DNA of 18,614 nucleotides, from the NCBI GenBank assembly GCA_947595415.1, contig CANQER010000004.1:1-18614 (forward strand). Reading direction: 5' to 3'. Position 1 is the stretch's first letter. The number at the start of each line of letters is the position of its first letter. The notes below the pieces were generated by a model that worked only from the letters and a program-made list of their open reading frames with translations, made no database searches and was not told where the DNA came from. The position numbers and the translations under genes were made by a program. This DNA comes from an uncultured Bacilli bacterium (GTDB lineage: Bacteria > Bacillota_I > Bacilli_A > RF39 > UBA660). This document shows, piece after piece, positions 1 through 18,449 of this stretch.

Positions 1-630
1 GGAGCAGTAGCATACTTATCGCATTCAAAGTATGGAAAAATTGGTAATGGACTTTATATTGGTTCTAATAAAGAAATATATCAAAATAAATATAGAGATT
101 CTTCAAAATATTCTTATACAGGATATAGTAATGGAACTCCAAGCAAAGATTCAATATTAACACAATGTTTGTGGAGTGATACAAAAGATAGAGGAAGTGG
201 ACAAGGAGCATGTGGGGCAGGAGCAAGTACAACAGGAAATATAACAGGAATCTATGATATGTCAGGTGGATCATATGAGTATGTGGCAGGATATAGAAAA
301 AATGGAAGTAGACAATATAGTGGATTTACAAGTGACCCAATAGAACAATATCCAAATTTAGCAAAATACTTTGACGTTTATGATGATGATAGTTTAGCAA
401 ATTCAGATACTAATTATAGTACAAGAAAATTAGGGGATGCAACGGCAGAAACAAGAAATTGGTATACTGATGATGCCTTCTTCATTTATTCTAGTAATTC
501 TTGGTTTATTAGAGGGTGTTATTATGCGGCTAATACATACGCTGGAATATTCCAATTTTCTAATCTTGATGGAAATTCTAATAGTATTTATTCCACTCGC
601 CTAGTCCTTTCACCAAGTACTACATCTTAA
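1..630 (+). CDS. C-terminal part of a large surface protein with FGE-sulfatase/C-lectin-like domain (5'-truncated by window)
   Basis: The frame is open from base 1, giving at least 209 residues; the N-terminus lies outside the window. It is a clear paralogue of the C-terminal third of the prepilin-like protein at 10150-12354. Both share GAVAYLS near the start, a DRG-x-G-x-GACGAGASTTGNITGIYDMSGG block, the DPI-[ED]-QYP and YFDVYD stretches, and an ending WFIRG...AGIF...IYSTRLVL. The GIYDMSGGxYEY and WFIRG...RLVL motifs resemble the GLYDMSGNVWEW and RGG...GFRLVL motifs of FGE-sulfatase (C-type-lectin-fold) domains. FGE catalytic function is not implied; ligand binding or adhesion is the likelier role. 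Codons end mostly in A (ACA, GGA, ATA) until about base 470, then mostly in T. The last ~50 codons look like a DGR variable region (see findings). By analogy a type IV prepilin N-terminus is expected, but it is not visible here. Confidence 0.85.
   Translation, partial: GAVAYLSHSKYGKIGNGLYIGSNKEIYQNKYRDSSKYSYTGYSNGTPSKDSILTQCLWSDTKDRGSGQGACGAGASTTGNITGIYDMSGGSYEYVAGYRKNGSRQYSGFTSDPIEQYPNLAKYFDVYDDDSLANSDTNYSTRKLGDATAETRNWYTDDAFFIYSSNSWFIRGCYYAANTYAGIFQFSNLDGNSNSIYSTRLVLSPSTTS
460..609 (+). other. Putative DGR-type variable region with terminal IMH-like block (copy 1)
   Basis: This is the last ~50 codons of the partial surface gene. It aligns almost gap-free with 12199-12345. The final 21 bases (589-609, codons TAT TCC ACT CGC CTA GTC CTT) are identical in both copies, although TCC, CGC and GTC are uncommon codons in this AT-rich DNA. 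Codons at 559-585 differ strongly from the other copy but keep T in third position. That is the layout expected of a variable region followed by an initiation-of-mutagenic-homing site. No template repeat is in the window, so the call is inferential. Confidence 0.5.
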
Positions 631-633
631 TAA

Positions 634-672
634 AAAAACATCTGAAATCATTAATTGAAATCAGATGTTTTT
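634..672. terminator. Bidirectional intrinsic terminator between the surface gene and alr
   Basis: A 12-bp perfect stem, AAAAACATCTGA (634-645) with TCAGATGTTTTT (661-672), starts just after the TAA at 628-630. It has T-runs in both orientations, so it can end the surface gene on + and alanine racemase on -. Confidence 0.85.
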
Positions 673-699
673 ATATGTCTAAATTGTGTTAAATTTACA

Positions 700-10149: not shown

Positions 10150-12354
10150 ATGAAGAAAAATAATAAGAAAGGATTTACATTAATAGAGCTTTTAGCAGTA
10201 ATCGTAATACTAGGAGTAATAGCATTAATCGCAACACCAATAGTAATAAACGTAATAGAAAAAGCAAAACAAGAAAGTTATAAAAGAAGTGTAGAGTTTG
10301 CGATGGATGCCACAGATTATTATTTGTTAGAAGAAAAAATAGATGAAATACCAAGTGAAGGAATAGAGGTAACAGATTTAAAATTAAAGAATAATAATTT
10401 TAAAAGTGGAGTAATAAAAGAGAATAGTAAAGAAGAAGTAATAGCAGATAAAGTAAGTAATGGAGAATATTGTGCAAGTGGTAGAAAAACTAGGTTAACA
10501 GTAGTAAAAGGAAGTTGTGATGAAATAGTAGAGCCACTAGAAATATATAATATAGTACCAAATTCAGTAACAAGTAGTAGTATAATAGTAGTAGTAGATG
10601 TAAATAATCAAAATAATATAAAAGGATATTATTATGCCATAAATGGAGAAGAATATGGAGAAATGGAAAATGAAAATACACATAAATTTACAGAATTAAC
10701 AAAAAATACAAGTTATAAAATAAAAGTAAAAGTAGAAGATAATGATGGTGTAATAGAAGAAGACACGATAACAGTAAAAACAACAGATATAAGTGAACCA
10801 ACATATAAAACAGTAGAAGAAGTAAATAAAGTAGTAGTAACAATAACATATCCAAATCCAAAAGAAGAAAATTGGGTATATGAATATCAAAAGTACACAG
10901 ATAGTTTAAGTGAAACTGGTTGGACAGAAGTAGAAGATGGAACAACAGCAACAGTAGATTTTACAAGTAATGGAAAATTAGTAGCACGAGTAAAAGATAC
11001 AGGAAATGGCAAGAATACAGTAACAGCGTCAACATATGAAGTAGCAAATATGACATATACAGATGAGATATTAAAAGGAAGTGATCCAGTAATAAAGGGA
11101 AATTTGGTACCAGTAAAAATATCAGAAAAAGGAAAAGTAACCAAAGCAGATACAACTAAAGAGTGGTATAACTATAGTAATCAAGAATGGGCTAATGCAG
11201 TACTACTAACAGACAATGCAGATGAAAGTAATTATAATGATTATACAACTGAAATTCCAGAAGAAAAAATAAGAGCTTATTTTGTCTGGATACCAAGATA
11301 TAAATATCAAATATTTAATTCAGAAAAATATGCATCACAAAGTGAAAATACAAATAAGGTACAACAAATAAAAATAGAATTTCAAAGTATTGATGATCAA
11401 GAAGAAGTTGGCACAACAACAGGAGAATGGTTAACCCATCCAGCGTTTACAACATTAGGAGTAAGTGGAATATGGGTAGGAAAGTTTGAAGTAGGATATA
11501 ATCAAAACGATGATACAAGTGGAGATATAGTAGTGGATGATAAATGGACAACAAAAGGAGCACAAACTACAGAATCGTATACAATTGAATTACCAAAAAA
11601 GATAATAGTAAAACCAAATGTATATTCATGGAGATTTCAAAATATAAATACATATTTTGAAACATTTTATAATTTTAATAGAGACTTAGATAGTCATATG
11701 ATGAAAAATACAGAATGGGGAGCAGTAGCTTATTTATCTAATTCAAAATATGGAAAGTATGGAAACAGCAAATATACAGAGGCGAATAAAGAAATATATA
11801 CAAATAATTCAAGTAATTATTATACAGGTAAAAGTAGTGGCAAACCAGGTTATAGTGGTACCTCATCAAATGGTACTTGTAGTTGGATAGATACAGAAGA
11901 TAGAGGAGAAGGAACAGGAGCCTGTGGGGCAGGAGCGTCAACAACAGGAAACATAACAGGAATATATGATATGTCAGGTGGGGCATACGAATATATGGCA
12001 GGATATAAAAAAAATATGGATTCACAAAGATTAGGAAATTGTGGATTTGAAAAAGACCCAATAGACCAATATCCAGATTTTAAAAAATACTTCGACGTAT
12101 ATGATGAAAATGCATATTTTAGCACAGATTATTCAAGAAGAATTTTAGGAGATGCCACAGGAGAGCTAGGACCATTTAGTAGTGAATATAAAAGTAGCTG
12201 GTATAATAATGGTGCTTTCTTCATTGGAACTACTTACCCATGGTTTATACGTGGAGGTAATTATAGTGAAAGTAGAGCTGGAATTTTCTATTTTTGTGAT
12301 GCTCATGGTAGTGGTAATGATATCTATTCCACTCGCCTAGTCCTTGCCCCATAA
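10150..12354 (+). CDS. Large type IV prepilin-like adhesin with Fn3-like and FGE-sulfatase/C-lectin-like domains
   Basis: A 734-residue, probably surface-exposed protein. Residues 1-32 are a class III prepilin leader and helix: KKG|FTLIELLAVIVILGVIALIATPIV, cleavage expected after G8, with E13 at position +5. A pilin-like stalk runs to about 125. An Fn3-like domain (about 128-211) and a second beta-rich domain (about 215-300) follow. From about 375 to the end there is an FGE-sulfatase-like C-lectin fold with GNITGIYDMSGGAYEY (600-615), WFIRGG (698-703) and STRLVLAP at the C-terminus. Conserved Cys residues (CSWIDTEDRG, GACGAG) could form disulfides. The ATG has GGGAGG 9 nt upstream. Length is far above a normal major pilin (about 150), so a tip or minor adhesin is more likely. 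Codons are strongly A-ending, unlike the T-ending housekeeping genes, until the last ~50 codons. Confidence 0.85.
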   Translation: MKKNNKKGFTLIELLAVIVILGVIALIATPIVINVIEKAKQESYKRSVEFAMDATDYYLLEEKIDEIPSEGIEVTDLKLKNNNFKSGVIKENSKEEVIADKVSNGEYCASGRKTRLTVVKGSCDEIVEPLEIYNIVPNSVTSSSIIVVVDVNNQNNIKGYYYAINGEEYGEMENENTHKFTELTKNTSYKIKVKVEDNDGVIEEDTITVKTTDISEPTYKTVEEVNKVVVTITYPNPKEENWVYEYQKYTDSLSETGWTEVEDGTTATVDFTSNGKLVARVKDTGNGKNTVTASTYEVANMTYTDEILKGSDPVIKGNLVPVKISEKGKVTKADTTKEWYNYSNQEWANAVLLTDNADESNYNDYTTEIPEEKIRAYFVWIPRYKYQIFNSEKYASQSENTNKVQQIKIEFQSIDDQEEVGTTTGEWLTHPAFTTLGVSGIWVGKFEVGYNQNDDTSGDIVVDDKWTTKGAQTTESYTIELPKKIIVKPNVYSWRFQNINTYFETFYNFNRDLDSHMMKNTEWGAVAYLSNSKYGKYGNSKYTEANKEIYTNNSSNYYTGKSSGKPGYSGTSSNGTCSWIDTEDRGEGTGACGAGASTTGNITGIYDMSGGAYEYMAGYKKNMDSQRLGNCGFEKDPIDQYPDFKKYFDVYDENAYFSTDYSRRILGDATGELGPFSSEYKSSWYNNGAFFIGTTYPWFIRGGNYSESRAGIFYFCDAHGSGNDIYSTRLVLAP
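12199..12345 (+). other. Putative DGR-type variable region with terminal IMH-like block (copy 2)
   Basis: Codons 684-732 of the adhesin. The last 21 bases (12325-12345) are identical to 589-609 in the first surface gene. The nine codons before ATC (12295-12321: TGT GAT GCT CAT GGT AGT GGT AAT GAT) all end in T and differ from the other copy mainly in first and second positions. This is expected if adenines of AAT codons in a template repeat were randomised. No template or reverse transcriptase is in the window. Confidence 0.5.
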
Positions 12355-12384
12355 AACATACATCTAAAAAATGTATGTTTTTTT
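12353..12384. terminator. Bidirectional intrinsic terminator between adhesin and gatD
   Basis: AAAACATACAT (12353-12363) pairs perfectly with ATGTATGTTTT (12371-12381), loop CTAAAAA, then more T. It overlaps the adhesin stop and can also serve gatD on the minus strand. Confidence 0.85.
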
Positions 12385-14839: not shown

Positions 14840-14858
14840 AGGATAGATAAACTATCCT
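14840..14858 (-). terminator. Intrinsic terminator of the PASTA gene
   Basis: On the minus strand AGGATAG, loop TTTAT, CTATCCT, then TTTTTATA. The stem overlaps the TAG stop of the PASTA gene. On the plus strand it lacks a T-run, so it acts mainly on the minus strand. Confidence 0.75.
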
Positions 14859-16609
14859 ACAATATATATACTATATGTTTTACCTTGAGTGAATGTATAA
14901 GCTTTACCACCTTGAATAGGAGATGATGGATGAATTAATCCACTAGTTAAAGTATTATGAGATTTTTTAACAATGTTAAATGTTACTCCAGGACACAAAC
15001 TAGTTAGTTTTGATTTTAGATTACTAATAGTTTTACTAGTATTACCTATCGCTAACCAACCTTCTTGAATTACGATGTTACTGTATGTTTTAGCAGAACC
15101 ACTACTAAGTGTAATATACATACTTGTATTTTTAGGTACTGTTGTTCCACTTTTAAATTGTTGACTTACAGCATAGTCTTTTTTGATTGTATCGTTATAA
15201 GATGAATAGTTAAAACTACATACTAAACCAATTTCTGAACATTTATTTTTAATATAAGTTTTACTTTGATTGTAGAAATTAGGAATAGTAATTTTACCAC
15301 CTTTAGAATATTTGACTAATATTTTTTTATTTGTATCTATATATTCACCAACTTTTGGATCAGTACTTATGATATATCCAGGTTCAACTTTATCACTATA
15401 TACATCTTCTAAATCGTAGTTTAAATTTAAACTATCTGCCCAAGCTTTAAAGTCTTGGTATTTTTTAAATTCTTTCATTTTTAACTTACCTAATGAGGTA
15501 GTTATAACAATATTGGTTCCTTCTTCAACTAGATCACCTTTACTATAATTAGCTTTAATTATTTTACCAACCTCCATATTACTATATTCTTCTTTAAAGG
15601 TTACTTTAAGTTTGTTTTGGATGATAAAATCAGTAGCTTCTTTAACAGTCATACTTTTAAAGTCAGGTATCATAATTTCTTTTCCTTTTGAAATAGTAAT
15701 TGTAACTAAATCTTTAGAAGGGGATAATATAGTATTTACATCTACATCTTGACTTATTACATAGTCTTTTTTAATGGTATTAGAAAATTCATAATTTATT
15801 TTATAGTTTAAACCATTTCTTTTAAGCCATAAGGTAGCATCAAAATTACTCATGTTAACTAAATCAATCATTGATACATCAGGTAGTTTTTCATTACTAA
15901 GGGATACTGTTAGAATGATTTTAGTGTTTCTTTTTATTTGGCCACTTTTATTTTGACCAATTATTATATCTTTTTTTTCTTCATTTTTGACATAGTTAAT
16001 TATAACGTTGTTTAAATAGTTTTCTTTTATTACCTCAACAGCTTCATCGATATTCCAACCAAGCATATTAGGAATAATTACTTCTTTTTCATAATTTGGT
16101 CCATTTGATACGATAAAGTTAATTTTATCAATACTATCAATTGGTTCATTTGGAGTCGCACTTTGAGAGATGATTGAAAATTCTTCTATGTTATCACTAT
16201 ATTCATAAACTTGACTTACTTCAATTTTATTACTACTAGCCCAAGAAAGACCTTTTTGGATGTTTTCACCTACAAAGTTAGGAGTAAGAGTTACGTTAGT
16301 TTGTGTTTTTTCAAGTAGGTTATATCCTATAAGACCTATAAAAAGAATACCTATAAATAAACCTAAGACTTTTTTACCTAATTCTTTTTTGATAAAGATT
16401 AAAATTATAAATAAAAATATAATTAAAGTTATTAAAGAACCATTTATAACTAAATCTAAATTATCTATATTTTTAACTACATAATAAACTCCTAGTCCTA
16501 GAGTAAATATTAAAACTAGAGCTAAAATAAAATTAATAAATCCATGTTTTTTTTCTTTAACTTCATTTCGATTTAATCTTCTTAAAATCTCTTTTTTATC
16601 TTCATTCAT
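14852..16609 (-). CDS. PASTA-domain membrane protein without kinase or transpeptidase
   Basis: A 585-residue protein with a charged cytoplasmic N-terminus (1-23), three membrane helices (about 24-45, 53-73, 81-98), then an extracellular chain of about six PASTA repeats (roughly 107-170, 176-238, 241-308, 312-373, 376-436, 440-503). Each repeat carries the family pattern, such as PNFVG...A, IPNMLGWNIDEA, or VISQ...G..V..G/N..I...VS.G. A final Cys-containing module spans about 510-585. PASTA domains bind muropeptides or lipid II and normally sit on PrkC/StkP kinases or PBP2x. Neither catalytic domain is present here, although the chain is complete with its own start (GTGGTGG ribosome site) and terminator. 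A wall-sensing or scaffolding role is inferred. Confidence 0.85.
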   Translation of the reverse strand: MNEDKKEILRRLNRNEVKEKKHGFINFILALVLIFTLGLGVYYVVKNIDNLDLVINGSLITLIIFLFIILIFIKKELGKKVLGLFIGILFIGLIGYNLLEKTQTNVTLTPNFVGENIQKGLSWASSNKIEVSQVYEYSDNIEEFSIISQSATPNEPIDSIDKINFIVSNGPNYEKEVIIPNMLGWNIDEAVEVIKENYLNNVIINYVKNEEKKDIIIGQNKSGQIKRNTKIILTVSLSNEKLPDVSMIDLVNMSNFDATLWLKRNGLNYKINYEFSNTIKKDYVISQDVDVNTILSPSKDLVTITISKGKEIMIPDFKSMTVKEATDFIIQNKLKVTFKEEYSNMEVGKIIKANYSKGDLVEEGTNIVITTSLGKLKMKEFKKYQDFKAWADSLNLNYDLEDVYSDKVEPGYIISTDPKVGEYIDTNKKILVKYSKGGKITIPNFYNQSKTYIKNKCSEIGLVCSFNYSSYNDTIKKDYAVSQQFKSGTTVPKNTSMYITLSSGSAKTYSNIVIQEGWLAIGNTSKTISNLKSKLTSLCPGVTFNIVKKSHNTLTSGLIHPSSPIQGGKAYTFTQGKTYSIYIVG

Positions 16610-18095: not shown

Positions 18096-18449
18096 ATGAA
18101 AGGATTTACATTAATTGAAGCTTTAACTGTGTTAGTAGTTTTTGGAATAATTTGTTTAATTGGAATACCTATTGCGAAAAATGTTTTATCTAGATCAAGT
18201 GATAGTTTGTATGATACTCAAGTTAAGTTGATTGAAGATACAGTTGAAGAGATGACTATTGATGATAGAAGTATGTTAGGGAAAGTAAGTTGTATTAATC
18301 TAGAAGATGTTATAAAAAGTGGTTACTTAGATCAAAAACAAATAATTGATCCTAGAAACAATGAGGCAATGGATGGTAGTGTAAATATTACTTATGATGC
18401 TGAATATGACGATTATAGTTTTAAATATCAAGAGACTAGATGTTCTTAA
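18096..18449 (+). CDS. Short type IV prepilin-like protein
   Basis: A 117-residue protein starting MKGFTLIEALTVLVVFGIICLIGIPIAKN in effect: a very short leader ending in Gly3, Phe as first mature residue, Glu at +5, and a single hydrophobic helix. This is the class III signal of type IV pilins, competence pseudopilins and type II secretion pseudopilins. The soluble part is small and acidic, with two Cys residues (SCINLED and the C-terminal TRCS) that could form a disulfide. GTAGGTG overlapping the upstream stop is its ribosome-binding site, so it is co-expressed with the NlpC/P60 enzyme. No prepilin peptidase, ATPase or platform protein is in the window, so the apparatus must be encoded elsewhere. 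Which pilin class it is cannot be told. Confidence 0.8.
   Translation: MKGFTLIEALTVLVVFGIICLIGIPIAKNVLSRSSDSLYDTQVKLIEDTVEEMTIDDRSMLGKVSCINLEDVIKSGYLDQKQIIDPRNNEAMDGSVNITYDAEYDDYSFKYQETRCS

Follow-up and report, generated by a model that had tools for sequence, protein, structure and literature searches.

Tails of a prepilin-like gene family in an uncultured Bacilli bacterium, very probably rewritten in trans by a diversity-generating retroelement

The sequence considered here is an 18,614-nucleotide stretch of DNA from an uncultured Bacilli bacterium of the RF39 lineage (contig CANQER010000004.1 of assembly GCA_947595415.1), which was analysed as a whole and is called the window below; it forms contig C4 in an assembly of 119 contigs and 935,318 bases, with a completeness of 68.4%. 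The window carries a gene for a prepilin-like protein, and the question is whether its C-terminal tail is the variable region of a diversity-generating retroelement (DGR), a system in which a reverse transcriptase (RT) rewrites the end of a target gene from a template repeat with randomised adenines. The gene is one of about thirty related, mostly pilus-like genes in a small genome, and very probably a mutation-making system of this kind, a DGR acting in trans, rewrites their tails or did so until recently. An initial annotation, made from the letters alone, had placed the responsible DGR outside the window, and this is confirmed at the level of the genome and the family by RT, Avd and MutS-like genes on another contig (C61) and by adenine-restricted tails in sister genomes.

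The protein begins with a prepilin methylation motif (N_methyl, PF07963, residues 3-28, 34.9 bits against a cut-off of 21.2), and its C-terminal domain is of the CLec/FGE type by predicted fold (22 of 23 candidates were aligned, L104 being left out as a frame with stops); the initial annotation had already called the gene prepilin-like and had named C-lectin and FGE-sulfatase folds as common among DGR targets. In its own genome the C-terminal domain has 32 matching places. N-termini were inspected in 21 copies, of which seven have their start region present, and six of these seven carry the prepilin motif; several other copies start just inside the motif, where the fetched stretch begins, and one copy (C41) has neither the motif nor the homing-site-like string described below. 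Prepilin peptidase and PilC-type genes are also present in the genome. In two family members (C59:5069-5530 and C27:1048-1494) the domain match does not reach the variable region, their tails perhaps being lost or too diverged; the tail alignment therefore comprises the other 30 of the 32 matches.

Outside the window, RVT_1 exceeds its cut-off at one place in the assembly, in two adjoining fragments on contig C61. Here a MutS-like gene, a bAvd gene and the RT follow one another on one strand, ahead of four further genes that we take to be amino-acid-carrier-like, uracil-DNA-glycosylase-like, TilS-like and the start of an FtsH-like gene. The RT is of the DGR type, its gene being broken; its pieces are 55-67% identical to the intact RT of a relative (locus L080, genome G011) and keep the motifs IPIGN.TSQ and YMDD. 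The bAvd frame beside it is whole and scores 74.6 bits against a cut-off of 40, MutS_I lies above its Pfam cut-off, and a profile built from five related RTs finds 8ub7 as its best match among solved structures (221 bits, the next at 111). MutS-like accessory genes belong to some DGRs. An Rfam scan of C61 gave nothing at the gathering threshold. The RT fragment is matched in 19 of 60 genomes, the window genome included; the best 80 of its 551 named relatives are from metagenome-assembled genomes, mostly labelled as uncultured Bacilli or Clostridia, with isolate names starting with Lapin common among them, and in IMG/VR the best 80 of 109 loci stand at 26-43% identity.

The most direct evidence for the mode of variation comes from sister genomes. 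The domain was sought in 37 genomes (36 of the same family plus the window genome) and is present in 20 of them, with 47 places in G021, 45 in G004, 32 in the window genome, 19 in G029 and 15 in G014. When template and target are compared, in three genomes the change is mainly at adenines: the local target of G021 differs from its template at 9/34 adenines and 0/115 other bases, that of G014 at 17/44 and 1/100, and that of G009 at 9/30 and 1/90. This extends to targets on other contigs. Specifically, a G014 tail on another contig differs at 17/44 adenines and 2/100 other bases, and the 16 G021 tails that match the template by BLAST, out of 47 domain matches (15 of the 16 lie on other contigs), differ together at 225/544 adenines and 282/1834 other bases, with an adenine bias that is individually significant (p<0.01) in 13. 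G021 has one RVT_1 gene, cut by the contig end, and G014 has two. In G011, an all-Asn template-like copy stands at a contig edge, about 220 bases 5′ of MutS-like, Avd and RT genes (L080); it is taken to be a template, and not a cut-off target tail, because of its A-rich codons and its place.

Tails in G004 (L236-L265) are highly variable and largely host-like, with a GC-rich 3′ end. Pooled over 29 tails read through their longest frames (30 of the 45 places were fetched, and L264 was dropped), the share of G or C at third codon positions (GC3) is 274/1160 in the variable region, 596/3190 upstream and 74/145 at the 3′ end (p 3e-11). This genome has one RT gene, which is whole and together with Avd adjoins one target; no MutS-like frame was among those listed for this locus, and no template was identified there. 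A prepilin start as a common property of the relatives' targets was considered and rejected, the motif occurring in 0/8 sister-genome frames with the start present (three of G021, five of others). Three G021 loci (L083, L121 and L227) carry the DGR-target domain behind quite different N-termini without the motif, a case of domain shuffling onto other anchors. In a strict motif scan of the best 80 of the 551 named RT loci, a target-like frame was seen in nine and the prepilin motif in the same frame in two, counts that are no estimate of frequency because many loci end near the RT.

Variation of the kind expected from a template can also be traced within the window genome. Codon statistics were computed on the 21 of the 30 aligned tails that have GC-rich variable regions (left out were both window copies, C2, C30, C34, C41, C44, C57 and C18:12790-13377). 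Their variable codons are mostly NNC or NNT and stand between fixed blocks, and their pairwise differences are 0.64, 0.65 and 0.46 at positions 1, 2 and 3, against 0.50, 0.57 and 0.44 in upstream hypervariable codons, a contrast that is real but modest (Mann-Whitney p 0.04). In the same 21 rows, AAN codons were placed using the templates of other genomes and not the family's own consensus. With the proven G014 template (L086), such codons coincide with columns that vary in the window genome in 14/15 cases (other codons, 7/35), with the proven G021 template (L083) in 10/10 (11/40), and with the template-like L080 copy in 14/14 (7/34). The tails of C11, C79 and C80 have in common a different 3′ string (TCTTGCCGCTTGGTGCTC or close to it), perhaps a second type of homing site or template.

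A search of the genome for an adenine-rich template repeat near an RT, as the initial annotation had proposed, was successful in part: the RT was found, in broken form, and so were relics of templates, but not an intact template. The BLAST queries were a family tail (40 of 90 candidates scored), the consensus template (26 of 26) and the C80 relic (40 of 70), and the matches among those scored are targets, relics and short chance-like matches only. The edge of contig C61 lies 188 bases 5′ of the MutS-like gene there, and the template or template-like copies of L080 and L083 lie roughly 220-370 bases 5′ of the MutS-like genes at those loci. One relic (C80:1755-1841) is non-coding and has an internal deletion; the target gene that precedes it has a 3′ end of the other type. 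In this relic 43 bases match the predicted template, three of the four variable codons reading AAC; the middle is then missing and the 3′ end present. The alignment scores 72.6, and none of 200 shuffles exceeds 30. The other relic (C48:74-143) consists of a promoter-like stretch as in C80 and, directly after it, the final 13 bases of the string that resembles a homing site, and is a template reduced to its two ends; a similar promoter-like stretch stands 5′ of the MutS-like gene in the C61 cassette. Together, the relics and the broken RT suggest that the system is decaying, or that the incomplete assembly shows one cassette out of several.

A number of observations weigh against the reading that a DGR has rewritten these tails. 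By BLAST, an intact template was not found in the 68.4%-complete assembly, the C61 RT has three frame breaks and the MutS-like gene one, and the FGE-sulfatase profile matches 8 of 22 members (best E 4e-4), the window protein not being among them. The 21 rows of the AAN-codon comparison were chosen for their GC-rich tails. In the sister genomes, 3 of the 16 G021 tails are without significant adenine bias, and four of six G014 tails combine 14-21 adenine changes with 8, 16, 18 and 22 others per about 100 sites; many relatives are therefore drifted or not template-derived. In the window gene, changes are not confined to template adenines (25/78 of the non-adenine sites mismatch the inferred template, and third positions have changed too), and the second window copy stands at 29/79, within a ladder that runs from 1/79 (C24:6-284) to 46/70 (C18:12790-13377), with C41 at 36/79, and that is partly circular because the inferred template was built from the tails themselves. 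GC3 in the variable region is host-like in the two window copies (6/40 and 8/40) and reaches 27/40 in other tails. The window copies thus look like old targets that have since drifted, and their GC3, their mismatches, the broken RT and the want of an intact template do not support the present diversification that the initial annotation had ascribed to them.

The system as a whole could still be active today if the breaks on C61 were assembly errors, or if C61 were a dead duplicate and an intact cassette lay in the missing third of the genome, and this we consider only a little short of an even chance. It would fit the completeness of the assembly, the single non-adenine mismatch of the freshest tail and the identity that the RT pieces retain to their intact relative, and there is a parallel in Pseudogulbenkiania, where distal targets have a mutated RT nearby and another RT is proposed to serve them (PMC3521204). 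However, the three neighbours that lie wholly on C61 have open frames while four breaks fall within the cassette's approximately 1.75 kb, and the deletions in the two template relics also suggest decay.

What has been kept in the drifted tails is a string that resembles a homing site. The conserved block reported for the two window copies is indeed identical over 18 bases and stands at the 3′ end of the variable region, as a site resembling the initiation of mutagenic homing (IMH) element does (coordinates in Table 1). As a synonymous string under the family's upstream codon use it has a chance of about 8e-9, and it is exact in 6 of the 30 aligned tails. Pooled over C34 and the two window copies, 18/18 of its third positions are kept, against 48/107 in their variable regions, and in all three its boundary at the variable region is sharp; even the badly diverged domain C18:12790-13377 still keeps the core TCCACTCGCCT. 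The pooled G004 tails show the same picture, a GC-rich 3′ end beside a largely host-like variable region, although the RT of that genome is whole. The homing site therefore seems to be maintained as DNA, whether by selection or by short-tract copying, since the string was kept while the variable regions drifted. Copying of the 3′ end of the template in short tracts, in place of selection, is quite possible, though we would sooner doubt it: the sharp boundary and the core surviving in C18 despite its many mismatches are in keeping with such copying, but in C28, a fresh tail, the string has drifted in its 3′ half, which copying should have restored. A perfect stem of at least 8 bp lies within 70 bases at 14/27 string places (one of them the C80 relic), against 9/69 control gene ends; in BPP-1 a stem-loop 3′ of the IMH assists homing (PMC12875486), and in the window the 3′ stem-loop is explained equally well by a terminator because a T-run follows. 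In IMG/VR the string has two matches.

The codon pattern that first drew attention to the tail does not bear the weight placed on it. It consisted of eight codon pairs of the two window copies, with 10/16 differences at first and second positions and 0/8 at third positions; these counts are exact, but the pairs had been picked from ten consecutive codons, and the two skipped (GGA/GGT and ATT/ATC) differ at the third position only. All ten codons show 5, 5 and 2 differences at first, second and third positions, and 40 aligned variable-region codons (12208-12327 aligned to 469-591, which has one unpaired codon) show 16, 12 and 15, so that the pattern alone is weak as a basis for a DGR. In 150 upstream codons the differences are 37, 38 and 55; third-position change is about equal in the two regions (15/40 and 55/150), and first- and second-position change is modestly higher in the variable region (28/80 against 75/300). 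Shared T at third positions is often to be expected, because T makes up 39% of the third bases in the family's upstream codons (A 48%, G 8%, C 5%). At the 14 AAN codons of the L080 copy the window pair differs at 7, 6 and 7 places in positions 1, 2 and 3, and a fresher pair of the same genome at 8, 7 and 1, which is the pattern that the initial annotation had looked for.

These figures also bear on two further explanations. It is improbable that the window copies are still being diversified from a second, AAT-type template, the NNT tails being its fresh products; the T-ending codons, the intact string and the coexistence in G004 of largely host-like tails with a whole RT would agree with it, but the window pair differs at seven third positions of the 14 AAN codons, no AAT-rich non-coding copy was seen among the candidates scored (40 of 90 and 40 of 70, and the consensus query), and the window assembly has no unbroken RT. 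Ordinary duplication with positive selection on an adhesin tail, and no DGR at all, is very hard to credit, for although the window pair alone lacks excess third-position conservation and upstream hypervariable codons are also lower at the third position (0.44 against 0.50 and 0.57), the RT/Avd cassette, the GC-rich NNC codons against 5% C at upstream third positions, the improbable synonymous string and the direct template/target pairs of sister genomes stand against it, and for G021 and G014 it is refuted.

Overwriting of the family's tails in trans by a DGR would proceed as follows. An RT-Avd complex would copy the template RNA and misread its adenines, and the resulting cDNA would take the place of the 3′ terminus in those family genes that have the short, GC-rich homing site. 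The C61 system may have served the window genes in this manner, and the proteins of the family are probably assembled as surface filaments. The window tails, by contrast with fresher ones, would have gone long without being overwritten, their homing site being kept by selection or by short-tract copying.

Precedents exist for parts of this arrangement. Treponema denticola has two to seven remote DGR targets (PMC4891356); those of its TvpA family are lipoproteins, whereas here they are prepilin-like, and the domain copies number 32 in the window genome and 47 in G021 (16 of the latter with tails that match the template by BLAST). Cyanobacterial DGRs, with 76 remote targets described (PMC7517822), are alike in that the targets are dispersed as paralogues, but the remote proteins are mostly predicted to be cytosolic and linked to signalling, and not one large prepilin-like family as here. 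Thiohalocapsa PB-PSB1, with 15 targets over nine DGR loci (PMC10907252), likewise has many targets per genome, some of them candidate remote ones; against its nine loci, one RT gene was found in each of the window genome (broken), G021 and G004. A review reports that in Bacteroides, with its type V pili, a pilus protein is a DGR target (PMC12632263), a likeness to these tip pilins that is limited by the other pilus type and phylum, the prepilin signal here being that of type IV. TaqVP, the DGR variable protein of Thermus aquaticus (5vf4), is encoded with its DGR in a prophage, unlike the window gene. Templates with a dozen to hundreds of copies have been described (PMC6642488), the named example being atypical, with few A-to-N changes, and MutS-like accessory genes are not mentioned in PMC3521204.

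The part of the literature that was searched contains no paper linking DGRs with RF39 or Mollicutes, and no title or abstract opening on a prepilin family of comparable size. The scale is unusual: three small genomes have 32, 45 and 47 copies of the domain, and in each a single RT gene was found. A repertoire so large and scattered is easy to miss, because at least one DGR survey had no automatic means of detecting targets that lie beyond 5 kb from the RT or on separate contigs (PMC3521204). We regard it as an evenly balanced proposition that in these uncultured Bacilli of roughly 1 Mb an estimated 5-7% of the genome (from 32 places at about 1.5-2.2 kb each) is a surface repertoire, prepilin-like here and with other N-termini in G021, one RT serving tens of dispersed targets in trans, with the homing site as the membership ticket by which drifted tails can be overwritten again. 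If one RT truly serves tens of surface proteins, small uncultured Bacilli would possess a repertoire that can be renewed and that compares in size with classical antigenic-variation families. Moreover, the series from fresh to drifted tails within one genome would allow homing-site rules and target turnover to be measured directly.

Table 1. Features of the target family in the window, with positions on the 18,614-nucleotide stretch
Feature	Position	Strand	Basis
Prepilin-like gene of the target family, 734 aa, with C-terminal FGE/CLec-type domain	10150..12354	+	Open reading frame, N_methyl, 32 domain matches in the genome, fold
N-terminal prepilin methylation motif	10156..10233	+	Pfam PF07963, translation
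Variable-region equivalent, 40 codons, drifted copy	12208..12327	+	Codon alignment with paralogues; 25/78 non-adenine mismatches to inferred template
IMH-like (homing-site-like) 18-base string	12328..12345	+	Identical block in both window copies
Inverted repeat with T-run immediately 3′ of the IMH-like string; arms of 11 bp, loop of 7 nt	12353..12381	+	Terminator and/or DGR stem-loop
Second paralogue of the target family, 3′ part (5′ end outside the window)	1..630	+	
Drifted variable-region equivalent in the second paralogue, 41 codons	469..591	+	29/79 non-adenine mismatches to inferred template; translation
Copy of the 18-base IMH-like string in the second paralogue	592..609	+	
Inverted repeat 3′ of the second paralogue, arms of 21 nt with 86% complementarity	630..676	+	

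Two other genes of the window may be mentioned. Another small prepilin-like open reading frame lies at 18096-18449, with an N_methyl score exactly equal to the cut-off, and a 585-residue protein with six PASTA stretches is encoded on the minus strand at 14852-16609.
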